A stretch of DNA of 64,000 bases from Candidatus Heimdallarchaeota archaeon (lineage in GTDB: Archaea > Asgardarchaeota > Heimdallarchaeia > Heimdallarchaeales > Heimdallarchaeaceae). Below are positions 1,313 through 64,000 of this stretch, one piece after another (the first letter of the stretch is position 1; each line of letters starts with the position of its first letter). Made by a program: the position numbers and the translations under genes. The stretch is taken from NCBI GenBank assembly GCA_018238545.1, contig JABCTC010000006.1, positions 40,609 through 104,608 of the forward strand. The letters run 5' to 3'. The notes beneath the pieces are model-generated. The model ran no database searches. It saw only the letters and a list, made by a program, of their open reading frames with translations, and was not told the DNA's origin.

Positions 1313-2114
1313 TCTCTCCTCCCATGCTTTTGTTCTGAATTAACCTAAGTGTTACAGTTCCAAAAACTGCGTAAAGTAATGGAAAAAGCAGCAATGTTGG
1401 TGAAGTTGGTGCTACTATAAGTGATAAAACTAAACTAAGAACCAAAGGTAATAGACACGAGATTGCAACAAAGATGACCATATTATCTTCAATTAACTTG
1501 ATTTCTCTTTTTAATTTGGTCAAGAAATCAGGATCGGTTTCTATGAAAGAATCTGGGTTTTTTAGGCTTTGAAAAGCATATTTGTGCTTTCTGTTCTGAA
1601 ACATTTTTGAATTTTCGTCAATTGTTTGATTTTCATCAGCCCCAATGTTCAGATTGAAGATCATATCTTCAAAGTGTTTTTTGTAGAAATTATCAGTTGT
1701 CCCTTTTTTTAGAAGTAATTCGATGGAGCGAGGTAAAGATTGTGTTGATTTCATACTGATTGAGAGAGAATTTATAATTAGAAAGGCTACCTCGTCAAAC
1801 AATCTGTGCTTTTTTATTATGCTTGACCTAACATAATCACTAAAAATAAAGAAGAGAGCAAGTGAAATTACAATTGAAACAATCAGTGTAAAAACCAAGT
1901 TTAACTGAATTAGGAAGTAACAGAGTAGCATCGAAATAAAGAAACTAAAAATTGCAAGATTGCATAACACCACTAGTTTTACCAAATCGTTTTCTGATAT
2001 GAAATCTTCTGAGTGTTTTTTTATTTTGCCTAATGTGATCTTATAAAGAAATTCTTTTGGTATCATGCTAAATTGCATTGTCCTTTGTATCAACGAAAAA
2101 TACCTCGACCCCAC
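1305..2114 (-). CDS. TadB/ArlJ-like integral membrane protein (T2SF-type)
   Basis: Two pairs of TM segments with T2SF-like spacing 'IINSLSISMKSTQSLPRSIELL'; operonic with the ATPase. Confidence 0.6.
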   Translation of the reverse strand: MGSRYFSLIQRTMQFSMIPKEFLYKITLGKIKKHSEDFISENDLVKLVVLCNLAIFSFFISMLLCYFLIQLNLVFTLIVSIVISLALFFIFSDYVRSSIIKKHRLFDEVAFLIINSLSISMKSTQSLPRSIELLLKKGTTDNFYKKHFEDMIFNLNIGADENQTIDENSKMFQNRKHKYAFQSLKNPDSFIETDPDFLTKLKREIKLIEDNMVIFVAISCLLPLVLSLVLSLIVAPTSPTLLLFPLLYAVFGTVTLRLIQNKSMGGENV

Positions 2115-3491
2115 TTACCTCACCGTTAACAGTTGCTCTTTTATCTTCTCAACATGATGTTGAAAACTTATGTCTCTTTTAATGATTGAATCAATTTTCT
2201 CTTTAATGAACGATTCTTCTTTTATTGTATCTATTGTTCTTTTCTTATCCCAAGAAGAGTCGTAAACTTTTGTTAAAAACCCATATTTTTTATCTATTTG
2301 TAGATTATTTGCATTGACCTCATAGATTTCAGCGATAGTTCTAATAAAACTAGTTTTCAGTATTTCGCGTTTCATGATTATAATCGTTTCTAGAGATAGG
2401 AAGTCTGTAACTGAAATTTTGTGCAAATTCTCCCATCTTCTTAATATTTTTTCAACAGAGTCGGCATGAGCTGTCTGTATGCCTTTTAAACCAGCATTTA
2501 ATGCTTCAAACATGGCTTTTGTGTGCTCACTCGATTGGATCTCTCCTAAATATATCCAATCAGGAGATCGATGAAGAAGTTTCAAAATTTCCGATGTTTT
2601 AGTGTATAAAGATCTATTAGATTCAAAAGAATCTACTTGTATTGATAATTGTTTATAACCTAACTCTGTTTGATTTATTGATTCAATAGCATCCTCTATT
2701 GCAATTTTTCTCCAGTGCTTTGGTGTATACAGGTCTATGGCATTTGCCAATGTTGTTTTCCCTGAGTTTGGTTCTCCAATGACTGTGATATTTCTTCTTT
2801 TCTCTACGACTTCAACTAAGTAAGCTGCTATGAATGAAGGTAAGGTTTTCAGTTTTATTAAGTCAACTATTTTTAAAGGGTTCCTATGAAATTTTCTGAT
2901 ATTGAATGTGGGACCGTTTGGAGATAATGGGGGGAAATCCATTGAAATTCTCATATGAAAATCATTAGTTTTAAACTCAATTTTGAGAGATGGTTTCTTT
3001 GTTGTAATGGTAATGGGGTGCTCTAATTTCAGTCTGTTTAGTAGACTTCTTATTTCTTCTTCTTCTAAAACTATCCCTGTATTGCACCTGCCGAATATCC
3101 TGTGATCAACATATATTGGAGCATTCATTTGATCCAGATATATCTCATTTACTCCATCATCCAAAAATAGTGGGATAATCCTATCTAGCTTTATTAATTT
3201 GTGGATAAACAATTCCGCAAATAAATCGGGTTCTGTTGGCAAATTATCAATTTCTAATACTTTCCACATAAATATTGATTTTAATACACTAATTAATTCA
3301 TCAAACTTTAGTATTTTTTTCCCTAATCTTTCCTTGTTTTTGAAAACTATTGACGATAATTCTGTGAATAATAGTGGGTCCTGATCAAAATTATACTCGG
3401 GTTTTGCACTGTAGACCAGGTAATTGCCATCGGTTGTAATTCTAATTTTGTATCCTTTGACTTTGTATTCACTTATTCCATTCTTTTCCAA
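2115..3491 (-). CDS. Type II/IV secretion system ATPase (TadA/ArlI/GspE family)
   Basis: Walker A 'GEPNSGKTTLANA', Asp box 'IAIEDAIES', Walker B region 'DWIYLGEIQSSEH', His box 'GIQTAHADS'. Confidence 0.93.
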   Translation of the reverse strand: MEKNGISEYKVKGYKIRITTDGNYLVYSAKPEYNFDQDPLLFTELSSIVFKNKERLGKKILKFDELISVLKSIFMWKVLEIDNLPTEPDLFAELFIHKLIKLDRIIPLFLDDGVNEIYLDQMNAPIYVDHRIFGRCNTGIVLEEEEIRSLLNRLKLEHPITITTKKPSLKIEFKTNDFHMRISMDFPPLSPNGPTFNIRKFHRNPLKIVDLIKLKTLPSFIAAYLVEVVEKRRNITVIGEPNSGKTTLANAIDLYTPKHWRKIAIEDAIESINQTELGYKQLSIQVDSFESNRSLYTKTSEILKLLHRSPDWIYLGEIQSSEHTKAMFEALNAGLKGIQTAHADSVEKILRRWENLHKISVTDFLSLETIIIMKREILKTSFIRTIAEIYEVNANNLQIDKKYGFLTKVYDSSWDKKRTIDTIKEESFIKEKIDSIIKRDISFQHHVEKIKEQLLTVR

Positions 3492-3681
3492 TTAGAAATC
3501 TCCCTTTCAGTTTTCACACTATCTTAATTACTAATTAGTATATCAACACCACTTTTTTGAATAAATCAGCAATTACAAGATGAACTGCAGCTAAGTTTAG
3601 AAAAGCTAATTCATCAATAATTTCGACACATATATGTAATAACTTTAAATAGAAAAAACTTGCAGTTGATGATGTGAGAAA

Positions 3682-4653
3682 ATGGCCAATAAATACGATG
3701 TAATGTGGACAGAAAAATATAGACCAAAAACTCTTGACGATTTGAAGGGCCACGAAGATATTATAGTACGTCTAAAAGGATTTATAAAAAGAAGGAATCT
3801 TCCTCATTTGTTATTTGCTGGACCTCCCGGCACAGGTAAAACAACAGCTCTTTTAGCCCTTGCCAATGATTTGTATGGTCACACAAATGTTTCTCGTAAC
3901 TTTCTAGAAATGAATGCTTCGGACGATCGTGGAATTGATACAATACGAACTAAAGTAAAAGAATTTGCCCGTACAGCTTCTTATGGAAACACCCCATTTA
4001 AGATAATATGTTTAGATGAAGCAGATAACTTGACTTCTGCAGCTCAGCATGCTTTAAGGAGAACAATGGAAAGATATGTAAAAACAAGTAGATTCGCATT
4101 AATTTGTAACTATTCAAGTAAAATAATAGAACCTATTCAATCGAGATGTGCAATATTTAGATTTAAACCACTTGATGAAGATAGTATTCGAGAATTTCTC
4201 AAATACATATGTGATAATGAAAAACTAGTATATGATAAAGAAGGGTTGGATACAGTTCTTTACATATCGGAAGGAGATTTAAGAAAAGCTGTTAACATCT
4301 TACAATCTACTGCAGCCGCAGGCAAATCAGTGGAACGAGTAACTGTATTACAAACTGTAGGACATGCGGATCCTGAAAGGATTAAGGAGATGCTTAATCT
4401 TGCATTAGACAAAAAATTTGAAAAATCTAGAGCGGTTTTGCAGAACCTTATTCTACAATATGGGTTATCTGGAACAGATGTAACACACCAAATTTATAGA
4501 GAAATATCTTCTCTCTCTATTCCTGATAGCAAAAAGTTGGAGATTACCGAATTTTTAGCTGAAATTGATTTTCGTATTTCAGAAGGTGCTTCTAGTAATA
4601 TCCAACTGACTTCTTTCTTAGCAAAATTAGTAAAAGAAGCTGATAAAGAATAG
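3682..4653 (+). CDS. rfcS: Replication factor C small subunit
   Basis: 'WTEKYRPKTLDDLKGHEDI', 'FAGPPGTGKTT', 'CLDEADNLT', 'ALRRTMERY'. Confidence 0.97.
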   Translation: MANKYDVMWTEKYRPKTLDDLKGHEDIIVRLKGFIKRRNLPHLLFAGPPGTGKTTALLALANDLYGHTNVSRNFLEMNASDDRGIDTIRTKVKEFARTASYGNTPFKIICLDEADNLTSAAQHALRRTMERYVKTSRFALICNYSSKIIEPIQSRCAIFRFKPLDEDSIREFLKYICDNEKLVYDKEGLDTVLYISEGDLRKAVNILQSTAAAGKSVERVTVLQTVGHADPERIKEMLNLALDKKFEKSRAVLQNLILQYGLSGTDVTHQIYREISSLSIPDSKKLEITEFLAEIDFRISEGASSNIQLTSFLAKLVKEADKE

Positions 4654-59502: not shown

Positions 59503-60630
59503 CTATCTTTCAATATACGTACTTTTAACTTTTGTTTGTTTTCCGCCTTTTTTTCTGTTTTTTAAAAACTTGGGGTGGAATGTCTCATTAAAATTTTCAA
59601 TTTCTTTTAACAATTGCATTTGATGTTGAAAGTTTTCATTGTTTACTTGTCCTCTATAACTGTTAATTTCAACCTTTATATCAACGTATTCACAATAATT
59701 CTTACATATATTATGGTATTTTTTATGATGTTGATTTGATTTATTTGTGACTAAAAGTTCTACAAATCTCTGATCTTGATGTAGGTTTGTCAAATAGTAG
59801 TTGATGATTATTTGCTGTGTTACTAATACAGCATTAACAAATAAGATCAATGATTTAGTCAATCTGATACCCGATAAGTTTTCAGAATATTTGATTACGT
59901 TATTTTCCATTCTTCTTGATAAAGGTATTAGATATGGAATGCTATGTCCTGCTTTGTGCATCACATTTTCTTTTTGATTATGAGAAATCTCTTCAATATG
60001 AAGTTCAGGTATCCACATGGCTTTATGAAAATAGTTATTTCGAATTTGTATGGCAAATCGACAAAATTTTGGAATATGTGAAAACAAAGATGACAAAAAC
60101 TCTCTTTCCCAATCATATACTTGATGAACAAATCTCAATTCTTCCTCTGATAAACTAAATTCATCTAAATTGGCGATATTATAGATGTATTCAAACATCA
60201 ATTTTTCTGGACTATTGTTAATGAATGATATTAAATCACTGTAATCCAAACCATTTTCTATTATTTTTGTCTTTTTCTTTATATTTTCTTCTTGTAAACT
60301 GTAGATTAAATTCATCAACATTTCAATTTCTCTGAAAACCTTAGAAATAACATCTATTGATTGATCAGTTTCCAGCAACTTTAACCAGAAATATCTTTTA
60401 TCCAATGAATCTTTGTTTTCTTCTGTTTCATCTTTATTCATTAGTTCAATCAGCTTATCTTGCTCCTGTCTGTACAAGTTAGAAAACTCTAAATAAGCAT
60501 CAAAAATAGGAATTTTTGACTTTTCTATTGCATATTGTACTAATACTAATAGGTCATTCAAGACTTGTTTCTGATTTTTTTGCTGTTTAGAAAAAGATTG
60601 ATATAACGAAGAACTTTTACGAGATCTCAT
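59503..60630 (-). CDS. Uncharacterised helical protein with HEPN-like RX4H motif (R197-NNYF-H202)
   Basis: 'FCRFAIQIRNNYFHKAMWIPELHI' fits the HEPN ribonuclease RN(x3)H signature; located beside the QueC/TatD genes. Confidence 0.5.
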   Translation of the reverse strand: MRSRKSSSLYQSFSKQQKNQKQVLNDLLVLVQYAIEKSKIPIFDAYLEFSNLYRQEQDKLIELMNKDETEENKDSLDKRYFWLKLLETDQSIDVISKVFREIEMLMNLIYSLQEENIKKKTKIIENGLDYSDLISFINNSPEKLMFEYIYNIANLDEFSLSEEELRFVHQVYDWEREFLSSLFSHIPKFCRFAIQIRNNYFHKAMWIPELHIEEISHNQKENVMHKAGHSIPYLIPLSRRMENNVIKYSENLSGIRLTKSLILFVNAVLVTQQIIINYYLTNLHQDQRFVELLVTNKSNQHHKKYHNICKNYCEYVDIKVEINSYRGQVNNENFQHQMQLLKEIENFNETFHPKFLKNRKKGGKQTKVKSTYIER

Positions 60631-60822
60631 ACTACCCAGTTAATCTTGAGATATTTAATCGTTTCAGAACTTTGGATAAATTGTTCAAACTTTTGAAAAT
60701 ATGAACAGAGAGGTATTTGGTATACTGTTGCCTAAAAAAATATGTAACAATAGAACAAACCAATACTTGAAAAGTTGGAAGAAACCTTTCAAATAGGTAA
60801 CACACAATTAAGCTTAATCAAA

Positions 60823-62193
60823 TTATTCTAGTTCTTTCATTCTATTATTTAATCTGACCTTAAATTTTGCAAGAAGAGACTTTATTGATTTTCCTAATAC
60901 AAAATTTTGCATAGGAAGATTATTTTTTCTATAATATTCATTAATTCCTATTAAAATATCCAGTGCAAATGATTTCTGAAGGGATAATATATCTAAATCC
61001 TCAAATTCGGAGAAATGGCTGTTTTGATTTAGTTCTATTGTACTTCTAATAAAATGATTTAATTCGTTTATTTTTGTGCGCTCTAGAATGTCATAACAAT
61101 AATCTAGTAATGAAATTAATGTATAAAAATCATTTTTATATTTGTATTTAGAAATCTCTGACATTGTTTGAAAATCCATTGGCATTTGCTTATACAATGC
61201 TTTATTTTCATCAATTCCTACAGCCAATAAAGCTGTCATTCTTATAAAACATGCTAAACATGTTCCGCAATGGTAATGTCCAATATCTCGCAAATTGTTT
61301 TTCTTTAGTTTGTCACGCCTATTTGGGTGAGTACATGAATAGGAAAGGTGAATAAGTTTTTTCCTGTCCTTCAAGGTTTTAACTACATCAGCTTTAGTTT
61401 CTTTTGCTAATGAATCAGATAGTTTTATGCCAGTTAAATCAAAAGCAATATTAGCTATTTTTTCCATTAAATAGGGCGATACTGTTCTTGTTGGTTCTAT
61501 TGAAATGTCAAATTTAGGTAAGGTTGCAATAGCACCGTTTTCTGGTATAATTACTTCTTTTGCATTTACTGAATCGGCTATTGCTATTCCATTAAGAGCA
61601 TATGCTACAGCTCTACTATTGATTATGCCTTGCTCTTTTTCTTGTTTACATTTAATTCCAAAATAGTTTATCTCCACCAAATCTAGTCTGATCTTGAACA
61701 TTTTTTCCAGTTCTGATACCAGATTTCTTACATTTCTTGTTACTTTTTTGTTATGATTTGTGTAACATAACAGTATTTTCTCTCTATTTTCGATACTTCT
61801 CACTGTTTGTGTAAGTGAATCTAATCCTCCTGAAAATAATATTACTTTATCATATTTTTGATTATTTTCAATAATCTCTGAATTATATTTTATAGGCATT
61901 ATTTTCAATTTGAATCTATCTGTAAGACCGTTAAAGAAATATATTAACTCTTGAGTTATGCTTTGTATTTTTTGGAAATATTTATCATTGCAAAAGAACA
62001 CTGAAAATTCTTGCTCATTGAAAACAGAACTGTTTACATAGTATAGATAAGCACCATATTTAACAAGATCAATTCCCTTATCTGACAGAATGACTTCTTT
62101 TTTATCTTTACTTTCAACTGAAATAAGTTTTTGTATTTCTTTTCTATTTTTACTCTCAAGTATTTGATATATTTTTATGTGTCCTTGAACCAT
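60823..62193 (-). CDS. QueC-like PP-loop protein, long form (QatC-like)
   Basis: PP-loop 'KVILFSGGLDSLTQTV', Cys cluster 'YSCTHPNRR...YHCGTCLACFIRMTAL'; 456 aa with an N-terminal extension versus about 220-240 aa for biosynthetic QueC. Confidence 0.8.
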   Translation of the reverse strand: MVQGHIKIYQILESKNRKEIQKLISVESKDKKEVILSDKGIDLVKYGAYLYYVNSSVFNEQEFSVFFCNDKYFQKIQSITQELIYFFNGLTDRFKLKIMPIKYNSEIIENNQKYDKVILFSGGLDSLTQTVRSIENREKILLCYTNHNKKVTRNVRNLVSELEKMFKIRLDLVEINYFGIKCKQEKEQGIINSRAVAYALNGIAIADSVNAKEVIIPENGAIATLPKFDISIEPTRTVSPYLMEKIANIAFDLTGIKLSDSLAKETKADVVKTLKDRKKLIHLSYSCTHPNRRDKLKKNNLRDIGHYHCGTCLACFIRMTALLAVGIDENKALYKQMPMDFQTMSEISKYKYKNDFYTLISLLDYCYDILERTKINELNHFIRSTIELNQNSHFSEFEDLDILSLQKSFALDILIGINEYYRKNNLPMQNFVLGKSIKSLLAKFKVRLNNRMKELE

Positions 62194-62211
62194 TCAGCTC
62201 CGCTCCGTTTA

Positions 62212-62520
62212 TTATTTGTGTATTTTTAGTATATCTGCTATTATTCTTCTTATTTTTTGTTCATTTTCATTATTTTCAAAGTCTTCAATGGATTTAATAC
62301 CTTGTTCGTTCAATTTGTTCACTATTTTTGAAGCAATTTTCTTTGCAGTTTCTGCCACTAAATCTTCTATATTTTTACGTATCTTATTGGGATCGCCCTC
62401 TGTTTCTTCAAAGCTATAAAATTCTTCTGTAAAGTTTCTTTTAATTAAATCCAATGTAAGATTCTTTAAATAGTTTTCAACAACAGATTGGATTATTTGA
62501 TTTAAAGTTAATTCTTTCAT
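62212..62520 (-). CDS. Uncharacterised 102-aa charged helical protein
   Basis: ORF immediately abuts the upstream 135-aa ORF and precedes the QueC-like gene. Confidence 0.6.
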   Translation of the reverse strand: MKELTLNQIIQSVVENYLKNLTLDLIKRNFTEEFYSFEETEGDPNKIRKNIEDLVAETAKKIASKIVNKLNEQGIKSIEDFENNENEQKIRRIIADILKIHK

Positions 62521-62928
62521 TTAATCACCTATAAGTCTTGAATAGCTCTCTTCTATTGCCCAAGTCGCTGCTCTTTTTGCATATTGACCAATATTTCTTC
62601 CCAAAAAAGGTCCGCCTATTGCAGCCATTGTGACATCTGCTAATCCTGATGTAAAGCCCTCTATAGCAAATGTTCTTGCAGCCTCAATTGCTCCTGCGGA
62701 TCTAGATCCTGTCTTTTGATACATTTTATAACCCGCAATTCCAGATTTAATTACATCATATATTGTTCCTACACCAGCTAAATTAGCTGCAAGATCTATT
62801 GTTTTATCTGCCATTTTTGCAAAATTATTTTCTTTTATAGAAGAACGAACCTCTTCAGAAATTTTTTTATATTTGCTATCATTCAATGGAGCAGACCTAG
62901 AAGCGGTACCCATAATTTCCCTCATCAA
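62521..62928 (-). CDS. Uncharacterised 135-aa Gly/Ala-rich protein (first gene of the QueC-like operon)
   Basis: Directly abuts the next ORF; contains 'GTIYDVIKSGIAGYKMYQKTGSRSAGAIEAARTFAIEGFTSGLADVTMAAIGGPFLGRNIGQYAKRAA'. Confidence 0.6.
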   Translation of the reverse strand: MMREIMGTASRSAPLNDSKYKKISEEVRSSIKENNFAKMADKTIDLAANLAGVGTIYDVIKSGIAGYKMYQKTGSRSAGAIEAARTFAIEGFTSGLADVTMAAIGGPFLGRNIGQYAKRAATWAIEESYSRLIGD

Positions 62929-62949
62929 TTAATTGTATGGTGAATTAAT

Positions 62950-63690
62950 ATGTTTTCAGAATATAAATTTTATGATATTCATAGTCATTTACACACTTGT
63001 TTGAACAAAATGTTGTTTGATGAACCATTTCTAGCTAAGCTTAAGCAAATGTCTATCGGCATTATCTTAGCTACTGAAGATTTTTTAGATTTTGAAGAAG
63101 CTACAAGAATTAGTACTAGATTGGGTTCCGTATTATCTGTAGGTCTTGGTTTTCATCCTAAAAATTATACCTATTTTGAACAGTTTTCCAGAATTTTATT
63201 CGATCGAATGGAAAATGTAGATATAATATCTGAAATTGGATTAGATAAGAATTCTAAGTGTCCAATGAACCAGCAAGAAACCTATTTATATGAGATGCTT
63301 TCCAATCTATCTTCCACACACATAATACAATTTCACTCCCCATCTTTGTCTTCTTCAATCTTGGATATTTTATCATCGTTTCATTTCAAGAAAGTTATTT
63401 TTCATCGTTTCAATGGTACTATGAATGAGTTAGAGCGAATAATTGATCAAGGATACTTCATTTCTGTTAATGTTGATGATATTCCAGCATTGTCTCGCAA
63501 CAATCTGATACAAAATTGTCCTCTTTCACAGATTTTAACAGAAACCGATTTTCCATATTGTAAGAATAAAAATTATTTAACTATTCTTCCCAAGCTAATA
63601 GAAAAGATTGCACAGATAAAAAATAGGTGTAAAGATGAAATTAGAACAACCATAAAAACAACCATCAATAATATTTTAGTTGAAAACTGA
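62950..63690 (+). CDS. TatD-family metal-dependent hydrolase (QatD-like)
   Basis: Metal-ligand motifs retained: 'YDIHSHLHT', 'ISEIGLDKN', 'IQFHSPSL', 'VIFHRFNGT', 'LTETDFPYC'. Confidence 0.88.
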   Translation: MFSEYKFYDIHSHLHTCLNKMLFDEPFLAKLKQMSIGIILATEDFLDFEEATRISTRLGSVLSVGLGFHPKNYTYFEQFSRILFDRMENVDIISEIGLDKNSKCPMNQQETYLYEMLSNLSSTHIIQFHSPSLSSSILDILSSFHFKKVIFHRFNGTMNELERIIDQGYFISVNVDDIPALSRNNLIQNCPLSQILTETDFPYCKNKNYLTILPKLIEKIAQIKNRCKDEIRTTIKTTINNILVEN

Positions 63691-63784
63691 AAATGCAGAC
63701 TTTTGAGTATATACTTCTACTATACATTGTTTCTTTAATTAAACCCAATGTAACATCCTTGAGCCAAAAGACATCCATACTAAC

Positions 63785-63949: not shown

Positions 63950-64000
63950 TTACATATAGCTGAACACAAGCTTTTTGTTATGCTTATAGTATCTTACTTT

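Follow-up and report, generated by a model that had tools for sequence, protein, structure and literature searches.

The locus lies in a 64,000-nt stretch of Candidatus Heimdallarchaeota archaeon (GCA_018238545.1, contig JABCTC010000006.1, 40,609–104,608 of the forward strand), hereafter the window, and all five open reading frames reported in the initial annotation are found at the positions it gave (Table 1). A ~3.1-kb block holding four of them is 92.4% identical by blastn to G007:C43:1511-4606 from Heimdallarchaeota 18H4_34 (G007), a genome of a different genus, and the DNA on either side is unrelated between the two. Because this common block stops before the gene for the 375-aa protein, we define the cassette as tatD-orf1-orf2-qatC and treat the HEPN-like protein as a neighbor. 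With differing flanks in the two genomes, the cassette appears compact and transferable between genera, and its genes are under purifying selection (dN/dS of ~0.45 for orf1, ~0.24 for orf2, ~0.21 for qatC and ~0.25 for tatD). Inspection of the block edges found no long terminal or direct repeats, on which grounds we rejected a reading of them as transposon ends. A viral origin was likewise rejected, as neither scans of viral contigs nor a phage protein search with ORF1 as query returned a relative. An Rfam search of the window matched tRNAs alone.

Table 1. Features of the locus, in window coordinates
Feature	Position	Strand	Basis
Conserved cassette block	60662..63756		blastn vs G007; edges inspected
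TatD-family QatD-like hydrolase, 246 aa, divergent	62950..63690	+	Pfam, NCBIfam, PADLOC; adjoins cassette in G007 and G119
ORF1, 130 aa, MGTASRS N-terminus	62521..62913	-	Start by RBS and comparison; QatB profile alignment
GAGGG ribosome-binding site of ORF1	62919..62923	-	Sequence
ORF2, 102 aa, acidic helical	62212..62520	-	Same position in all archaeal loci; AF2 pseudo-fusion model
AGGTGAT ribosome-binding site of ORF2, overlaps ORF1 end	62524..62530	-	Sequence
QatC-like PP-loop ATP pyrophosphatase, 456 aa	60823..62193	-	Family profiles, motifs
HEPN-like protein, 375 aa, RNNYFH; outside cassette	59503..60630	-	Block boundary; homologues without qatC

The RNNYFH motif that had suggested a HEPN RNase effector is indeed present in the 375-aa protein, and its RNN..H core (Rx4-6H type) is invariant in four members of the family. 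No HEPN match was returned by Pfam, NCBIfam or PADLOC; judged by its motif, a HEPN-like identity is plausible for this protein as an independent gene. Although it is encoded next to the cassette on the same strand, we regard it as highly improbable that it serves as the effector of a Qat-like locus: it is missing from the cassettes of G007 and G119, and its homologues occur in G024, which lacks qatC, and on a G007 contig other than the one with the cassette. Where the block ends and where the homologues are found together exclude it as a cassette component.

Archaea need QueC for archaeosine, and the 456-aa protein could in principle be a metabolic 7-deazaguanine enzyme for archaeosine or DNA modification, with the small ORFs beside it incidental. 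Its PP-loop fold, SGGxDS motif, zinc-binding CxxCxxC cluster and Pfam QueC match (9.8e-11) are shared with canonical archaeal QueC and fit its initial description as QueC-like, but stronger matches are to QatC (PADLOC 1.9e-27, NCBIfam 1.5e-30), which is the top family, well above QueC, in all five archaeal versions tested. The NCBIfam QatC score of 106 bits does not reach the equivalog cut-off of 280 bits, and such family cut-offs miss the cassette. At 456 aa rather than about 220–240 aa, the protein has the QueC fold with the N- and C-terminal extensions of QatC, lacks the YPDC-type motif of QueC and instead carries QatC motifs (SGGLDS, ENG, a TxT in the form TRT, and zinc cysteines including CGTCLAC). 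The TxT..P element, essential in QatC (Gao, Wassarman & Kranzusch 2026, PMC13279940), is present in every archaeal QatC examined and not in Asgard QueC. A separate canonical QueC is encoded elsewhere in the same genome, the tree sets the QatC-like protein apart from Asgard QueC (support 100/99), and the cassette is distributed sporadically within the phylum (3 of 232 genomes) with constant partner ORFs. A metabolic role is hardly credible against these observations; on motifs and tree, the protein falls outside archaeosine QueC and is QatC-like.

The TatD-like protein matches Pfam PF01026 (1.5e-29), NCBIfam QatD (1.1e-24) and PADLOC QatD (7.5e-23); its NCBIfam score of 86.9 bits lies below the cut-off of 230, with QatD still the best NCBIfam match, and its tree gives no firm grouping with bacterial QatD. 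The metal ligands noted at the outset are all in place (HSH, E, H, H and D). The gene adjoins the cassette in all three Asgard loci, so that the pairing with the QueC-like gene recurs in G007 and G119; none was seen beside the Halobacteriota loci. It does start divergently, as described, but the spacing of 22 bp has to be corrected to 36 bp, since ORF1 starts at ATG 62913 (130 aa) and not at TTG 62928 (135 aa). A GAGGG ribosome-binding site precedes this ATG, and the five codons upstream of it are frame-shifted in the G007 copy.

Two small ORFs upstream of qatC had been recognized from the beginning, and their arrangement is found elsewhere too. In 14 archaeal loci, distributed over Asgard archaea, Halobacteria and other Halobacteriota, the order is MG-starting ORF, ORF of ~100–140 aa and QatC; 12 bacterial loci carry a single MGTS-starting QatB of 239–300 aa. 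In the window, ORF1 and ORF2 share a frame and are separated by one TAA directly before the ORF2 ATG (TAG in G007), and exactly one in-frame stop lies between them in all three Asgard loci. In G119, ORF2 would have to begin at ATT. These features might point to a single QatB gene with an internal stop codon, either read through into a fusion or mutationally inactivated, but we consider this very unlikely: the stop differs yet is kept, ribosome-binding sites stand in front of ORF2 (GGTGAT, GGAGGGG), in Halobacteria, G470, G816 and G532 the two reading frames differ and overlap, and purifying selection acts on both.

We favor the reading that ORF1 and ORF2 together are a colinear split QatB, a reading drawn from profile comparison. 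Aligned with hhalign against bacterial QatB, the joined ORF1+ORF2 reached a global probability of 94.9% and a score of 46.8, and circular permutations scored 33.6 +/- 5.4 (maximum 43.5; 0 of 70 equal to the true order). With the first eight residues left out, the probability was 85.8% and 0 of 67 permutations did as well. Single profiles matched QatB weakly (ORF1 27%, ORF2 11%), hhalign with small alignments of either ORF gave no usable result, and no QatB family model matched ORF1 or ORF2. The ORF1 of G119, at just 71 aa, also speaks against a split QatB. In an AF2 model of an ORF1-ORF2 pseudo-fusion (pLDDT 74), ten helices come after a disordered N-terminus, in agreement with reported QatB; the N-terminal tail has ~11 disordered residues, compared with the published 30–90. 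Foldseek lends no confirmation: the pseudo-fusion gave no significant match in PDB and BFVD, and solved QatB was missing from its best 50 matches, whereas a bacterial QatB model recovered solved QatB, aided by 32% sequence identity. Of the two options first put forward, a replaced or a split QatB, the split is thus favored by the colinear match and replacement less so. The tree favors neither the split nor the fused QatB as the earlier form (AU p 0.18 with all split forms in one clade, 0.44 with all fused forms in one clade).

Replacement would mean that ORF1 and ORF2 are no QatB homologues at all, ORF1 being a convergent MG-x-x substrate, perhaps a small hydrophobic, glycine-rich protein that is membrane-active once tagged and restrained by its partner ORF2. 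Such pairings have precedent, as defense QueC-family enzymes act with substrates as unrelated as QatB and the CD-NTase of Cap9 (PMC13279940). The Foldseek results, a weak, below-cut-off Tim17-like match of the window ORF1 (E 0.0027) and a strongly hydrophobic stretch in the G470 ORF1 also fit. We nevertheless judge convergence rather unlikely, because the colinear QatB similarity beats every circular permutation, position and order before qatC are identical to those of QatB, and hydrophobicity is not kept across ORF1s.

Under the split-QatB reading, we propose from these alignments that ORF1, with its Gly/Ala-rich, helical body, is the N-terminal half of QatB and the substrate of QatC, and that ORF2 is the C-terminal part. 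In bacterial Qat, the enzyme probably tags the first glycine of its partner, and the MGTS N-terminus of QatB, G2 included, is essential. The MG start is invariant in the 14 archaeal loci while residues 3–4 vary (MGTA, MGSQ, MGSA, MGGR), and G2 of ORF1 thereby corresponds to the G2 that QatB requires and to the acceptor MGGS in type IV CBASS. That G2 is invariant across very divergent ORF1s is an independent, evolutionary argument for the N-terminal glycine being the acceptor.

The cassette is best read as a variant of the known Qat system, and the initial description as a rearranged Qat relative is supported. As in QatABCD, whose structures are published (PMC13279940), a QatC-type enzyme with TxT and zinc cluster is preceded directly by an MGT-starting partner, with a TatD-like protein nearby in the Asgard loci. 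It differs in using two ORFs for QatB, in a tatD that is divergent or missing and in lacking the KAP ATPase QatA. The contig ends at base 64000, cutting the window on that side, and so the absence of the ATPase rests on relatives: none was seen beside the 14 archaeal loci, including G007 and G119, and two haloarchaeal genomes carrying the system gave no KAP match. Of the earlier suggestion that the ATPase is absent or off-window, the first part is supported and the second rejected on the evidence of the relatives. Type IV CBASS, in which Cap9 deazaguanylates the N-terminus of a CD-NTase (PMC11996544), likewise combines a QueC-family enzyme with an MG-start protein, and the G532 ORF1 begins MGGR, close to the MGGS acceptor there. 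The cassette has no CD-NTase or Cap10, however, judging by the genes present in the window and in G007, and its enzyme has the QatC extensions and TxT and not the CDG-binding Tyr/Asp pair of Cap9. One haloarchaeal cassette adjoins two CBASS cyclase/Cap15 pairs. The main texts of the archaeal or Asgard defense surveys consulted do not describe the cassette.

Overall, we think it fairly probable, as far as sequence comparison can indicate, that this is an ATPase-less archaeal Qat relative in which QatB comes as two chains and bears an N-terminal glycine that QatC modifies, and a putative defense system. Archaea would make QatB as two chains, and ORF2, with the ORF1 body, would dock on the QatC-like enzyme at its extensions, ORF2 being expected to bind the C-terminal one. 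After removal of the methionine, the exposed ORF1 glycine could enter the PP-loop active site, where the enzyme would spend ATP to activate an acid, either 7-carboxy-7-deazaguanine or a related carboxylate, and join it to the glycine. The modified ORF1/ORF2/QatC complex would be the immune unit, and the TatD protein, found only in Asgard cassettes, may tune or widen the response. We infer complex formation, the reaction, the substrate acid and the antiviral function; published work found QatBC alone to protect against some phages. A more speculative view, to which we give little weight, is that the split itself is meaningful, with ORF1 tagged on its glycine by QatC and released by the tagging as the effector, ORF2 acting as a separate adaptor that keeps ORF1 on the enzyme, and the whole being a minimal form possibly ancestral to bacterial QatABCD with its fused QatB and QatA. 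PMC13279940 names the QatC reaction and the action of modified QatB against phages as open questions, and the three- to four-gene, ATPase-less form in cultivable Halobacteria would offer a minimal system for identifying the N-terminal modification.

All five open reading frames that the initial annotation had placed in a Qat-like locus are present where it put them; the window forms the right-hand end of a contig from a 3.6-Mb genome. The 456-aa QueC-like protein is QatC-like (PADLOC, 1.9e-27; NCBIfam, 1.5e-30, under the equivalog cut-off) and matches QatC only among solved structures, and the best match of the 246-aa TatD protein is QatD in both NCBIfam and PADLOC. Where QueC binds the nucleobase through Tyr/Asp, QatC has two threonines (TxT; Gao et al. 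2026, PMC13279940). The window enzyme carries TRT at this position, all other archaeal QatCs carry TxT there, Asgard QueCs lack it, and a canonical QueC is encoded separately in the window's genome. One tree sets archaeal and bacterial QatCs strongly apart from QueC; with a second sampling, one pair from Halobacteriota outside Halobacteria (G470 and G816) shifts toward QueC with weak support. The PP-loop of this pair and of the haloarchaeal QatCs of G970 and G950 (L047, L079, L109, L110) reads SEGLDS or SDG[LI]DS, not SGGxDS. In two Asgard genomes a canonical QueC domain is fused with an NAD-dependent epimerase domain, and the fusion gene is divergent from a queD-like (PTPS) gene.

A single-sequence search of 232 genomes from the window's phylum found cassette-type QatC in only three, the window's, G007 (a Heimdallarchaeota MAG of another genus) and G119 (a third Asgard genome), each with an MGTA-ORF (ORF1), a ~100-aa ORF (ORF2), QatC and a TatD. 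Its closeness to G007 makes the window Asgard. The tatD gene is divergent in the first two and in line in G119, where the gene for an unannotated 392-aa protein comes before it; by eye this protein shows HD-like motifs, and it has no family match. The TatDs of the Asgard cassettes cluster (83/69) and are not firmly tied to bacterial QatD. The first three of these genes, with no TatD, also occur on haloarchaeal plasmids and genomes (Halolamina, Natrinema, with ORF2 interrupted by a stop, Halobiforma, Halapricum, Haloarcula and G984; divergent, G970 and G950) and, with MGSQ or MGGR starts, in G470, G816 and G532 of the haloarchaeal phylum, for an archaeal total of 14 loci. Across 201 genomes sampled from the haloarchaeal class, the QatC profile matches at E < 1e-15 in 10, some of which we inspected. 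The gene following qatC varies; that of Natrinema weakly matches an Mrr-type REase. The G984 cassette directly adjoins two CBASS modules, each an oligonucleotide cyclase with a Cap15-type 2TM effector, and neither cyclase has an MG start.

In 12 bacterial loci a single 239–300-aa MGTS protein precedes qatC. On a Mycobacterium plasmid whose QatC lacks TxT, the annotated ORF at the QatB position is 117 aa only; upstream of it stands an MGTS start (ATGGGAACTAGC), which may mean that the annotated ORF is truncated or that the gene carries a frameshift. The MGTS N-terminus of QatB is essential, its glycine being the presumed acceptor of the QatC-catalysed modification, and QatB with QatC is enough for protection against some phages (Gao et al. 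2026, PMC13279940). ORF1, upstream of the 102-aa ORF2, begins MGTASRS from an ATG preceded by GAGGG; a longer TTG start was rejected because the five codons upstream of the ATG are out of frame in the 92%-identical G007 copy. Of the 204 ORFs at least 120 aa long in the sampled archaeal loci, seven have an MGT start, all of them, by our count, cassette ORF1s.

ORF1 and ORF2 could be one broken QatB gene, but the stop between them is kept and differs (TAA in the window, TAG in G007), ORF2 has its own ribosome-binding site, and the two overlap in different frames in Halobacteria, G470, G816 and G532, which argues for two proteins. QatB family models match neither. Joined as a profile from 12 archaeal loci, they align with 12 bacterial QatBs at 94.9% (hhalign, global mode), colinearly from end to end; all 70 circular permutations of the joined profile score lower, and the reversed profile reaches 1%. 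Without the first eight residues the value is 85.8%, equalled by none of 67 permutations, and each ORF alone is weak. An AlphaFold2 model from archaeal rows only, reading the window pair through the single TAA as a modelling device (no readthrough is claimed), has pLDDT 74, residues 1–11 disordered and ten helices, the number in published QatB (PMC13279940). Foldseek returned nothing significant for this model and recovered solved QatB from a bacterial QatB model (7e-8, 32% identity). With a colinear profile match but weak halves, and no match from QatB models or Foldseek, a split QatB is favoured, not proven. The QatC tree, with long branches, favours neither the split nor the fused form as older.

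The window and G007 share a block at 92.4% DNA identity (dN/dS ~0.45 for orf1, ~0.24 for orf2, ~0.21 for qatC and ~0.25 for tatD). Because its flanks are without match, the other genomes of the Asgard phylum lack it, and a glycine dehydrogenase subunit, possibly not orthologous, shows just 40% identity between window genome and G007, we infer that the cassette moved horizontally. The 375-aa gene, which the initial annotation had included in the locus, lies outside this block, and its family recurs in G024, without qatC, and elsewhere in G007. This Asgard family (350–500 aa, invariant RNN..H) has no Pfam match and up to three matches within one genome; it is possibly a HEPN-like family not yet described.

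Coordinates of the features discussed
Feature	Locus	Position
Shared block	window	60662-63756
Shared block	G007	1511-4606
ORF1 start (ATG)	window	62913
RNN..H protein (375 aa)	window	59503-60630
RNN..H relatives	L050, L051, L054, L055	
392-aa protein between qatC and tatD, G119	L010	6250-7428
Gene following qatC, Natrinema	L012	6039-7292
CBASS modules, G984	L111	1466-4559
Mycobacterium plasmid Qat operon	L044	2343-4625
Epimerase–QueC fusion, G120	L080	4784-6352
Epimerase–QueC fusion, G125	L081	5590-7158

At none of the 14 archaeal loci did we see a neighbouring KAP ATPase. PF07693 searches found none in two haloarchaeal genomes, nothing beyond weak, unlinked matches in G000 and G119, and one strong match in G007, on a different contig. 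Compared with QatABCD, the archaeal cassette was searched for a neighbouring QatA and none was seen, and its QatB counterpart is a candidate, so we do not file it there. Gene content, motifs, conservation and the shared block in different surroundings are direct observations; by analogy with Qat and Cap9, ORF2 and ORF1 would dock onto QatC, ATP would serve to activate a carboxylate, and ORF1 would be acylated on its N-terminal glycine, with an acid that, judging by TxT, may differ from the Cap9 substrate. We regard the cassette as a Qat-related variant whose mode of action is most likely that of QatBC.
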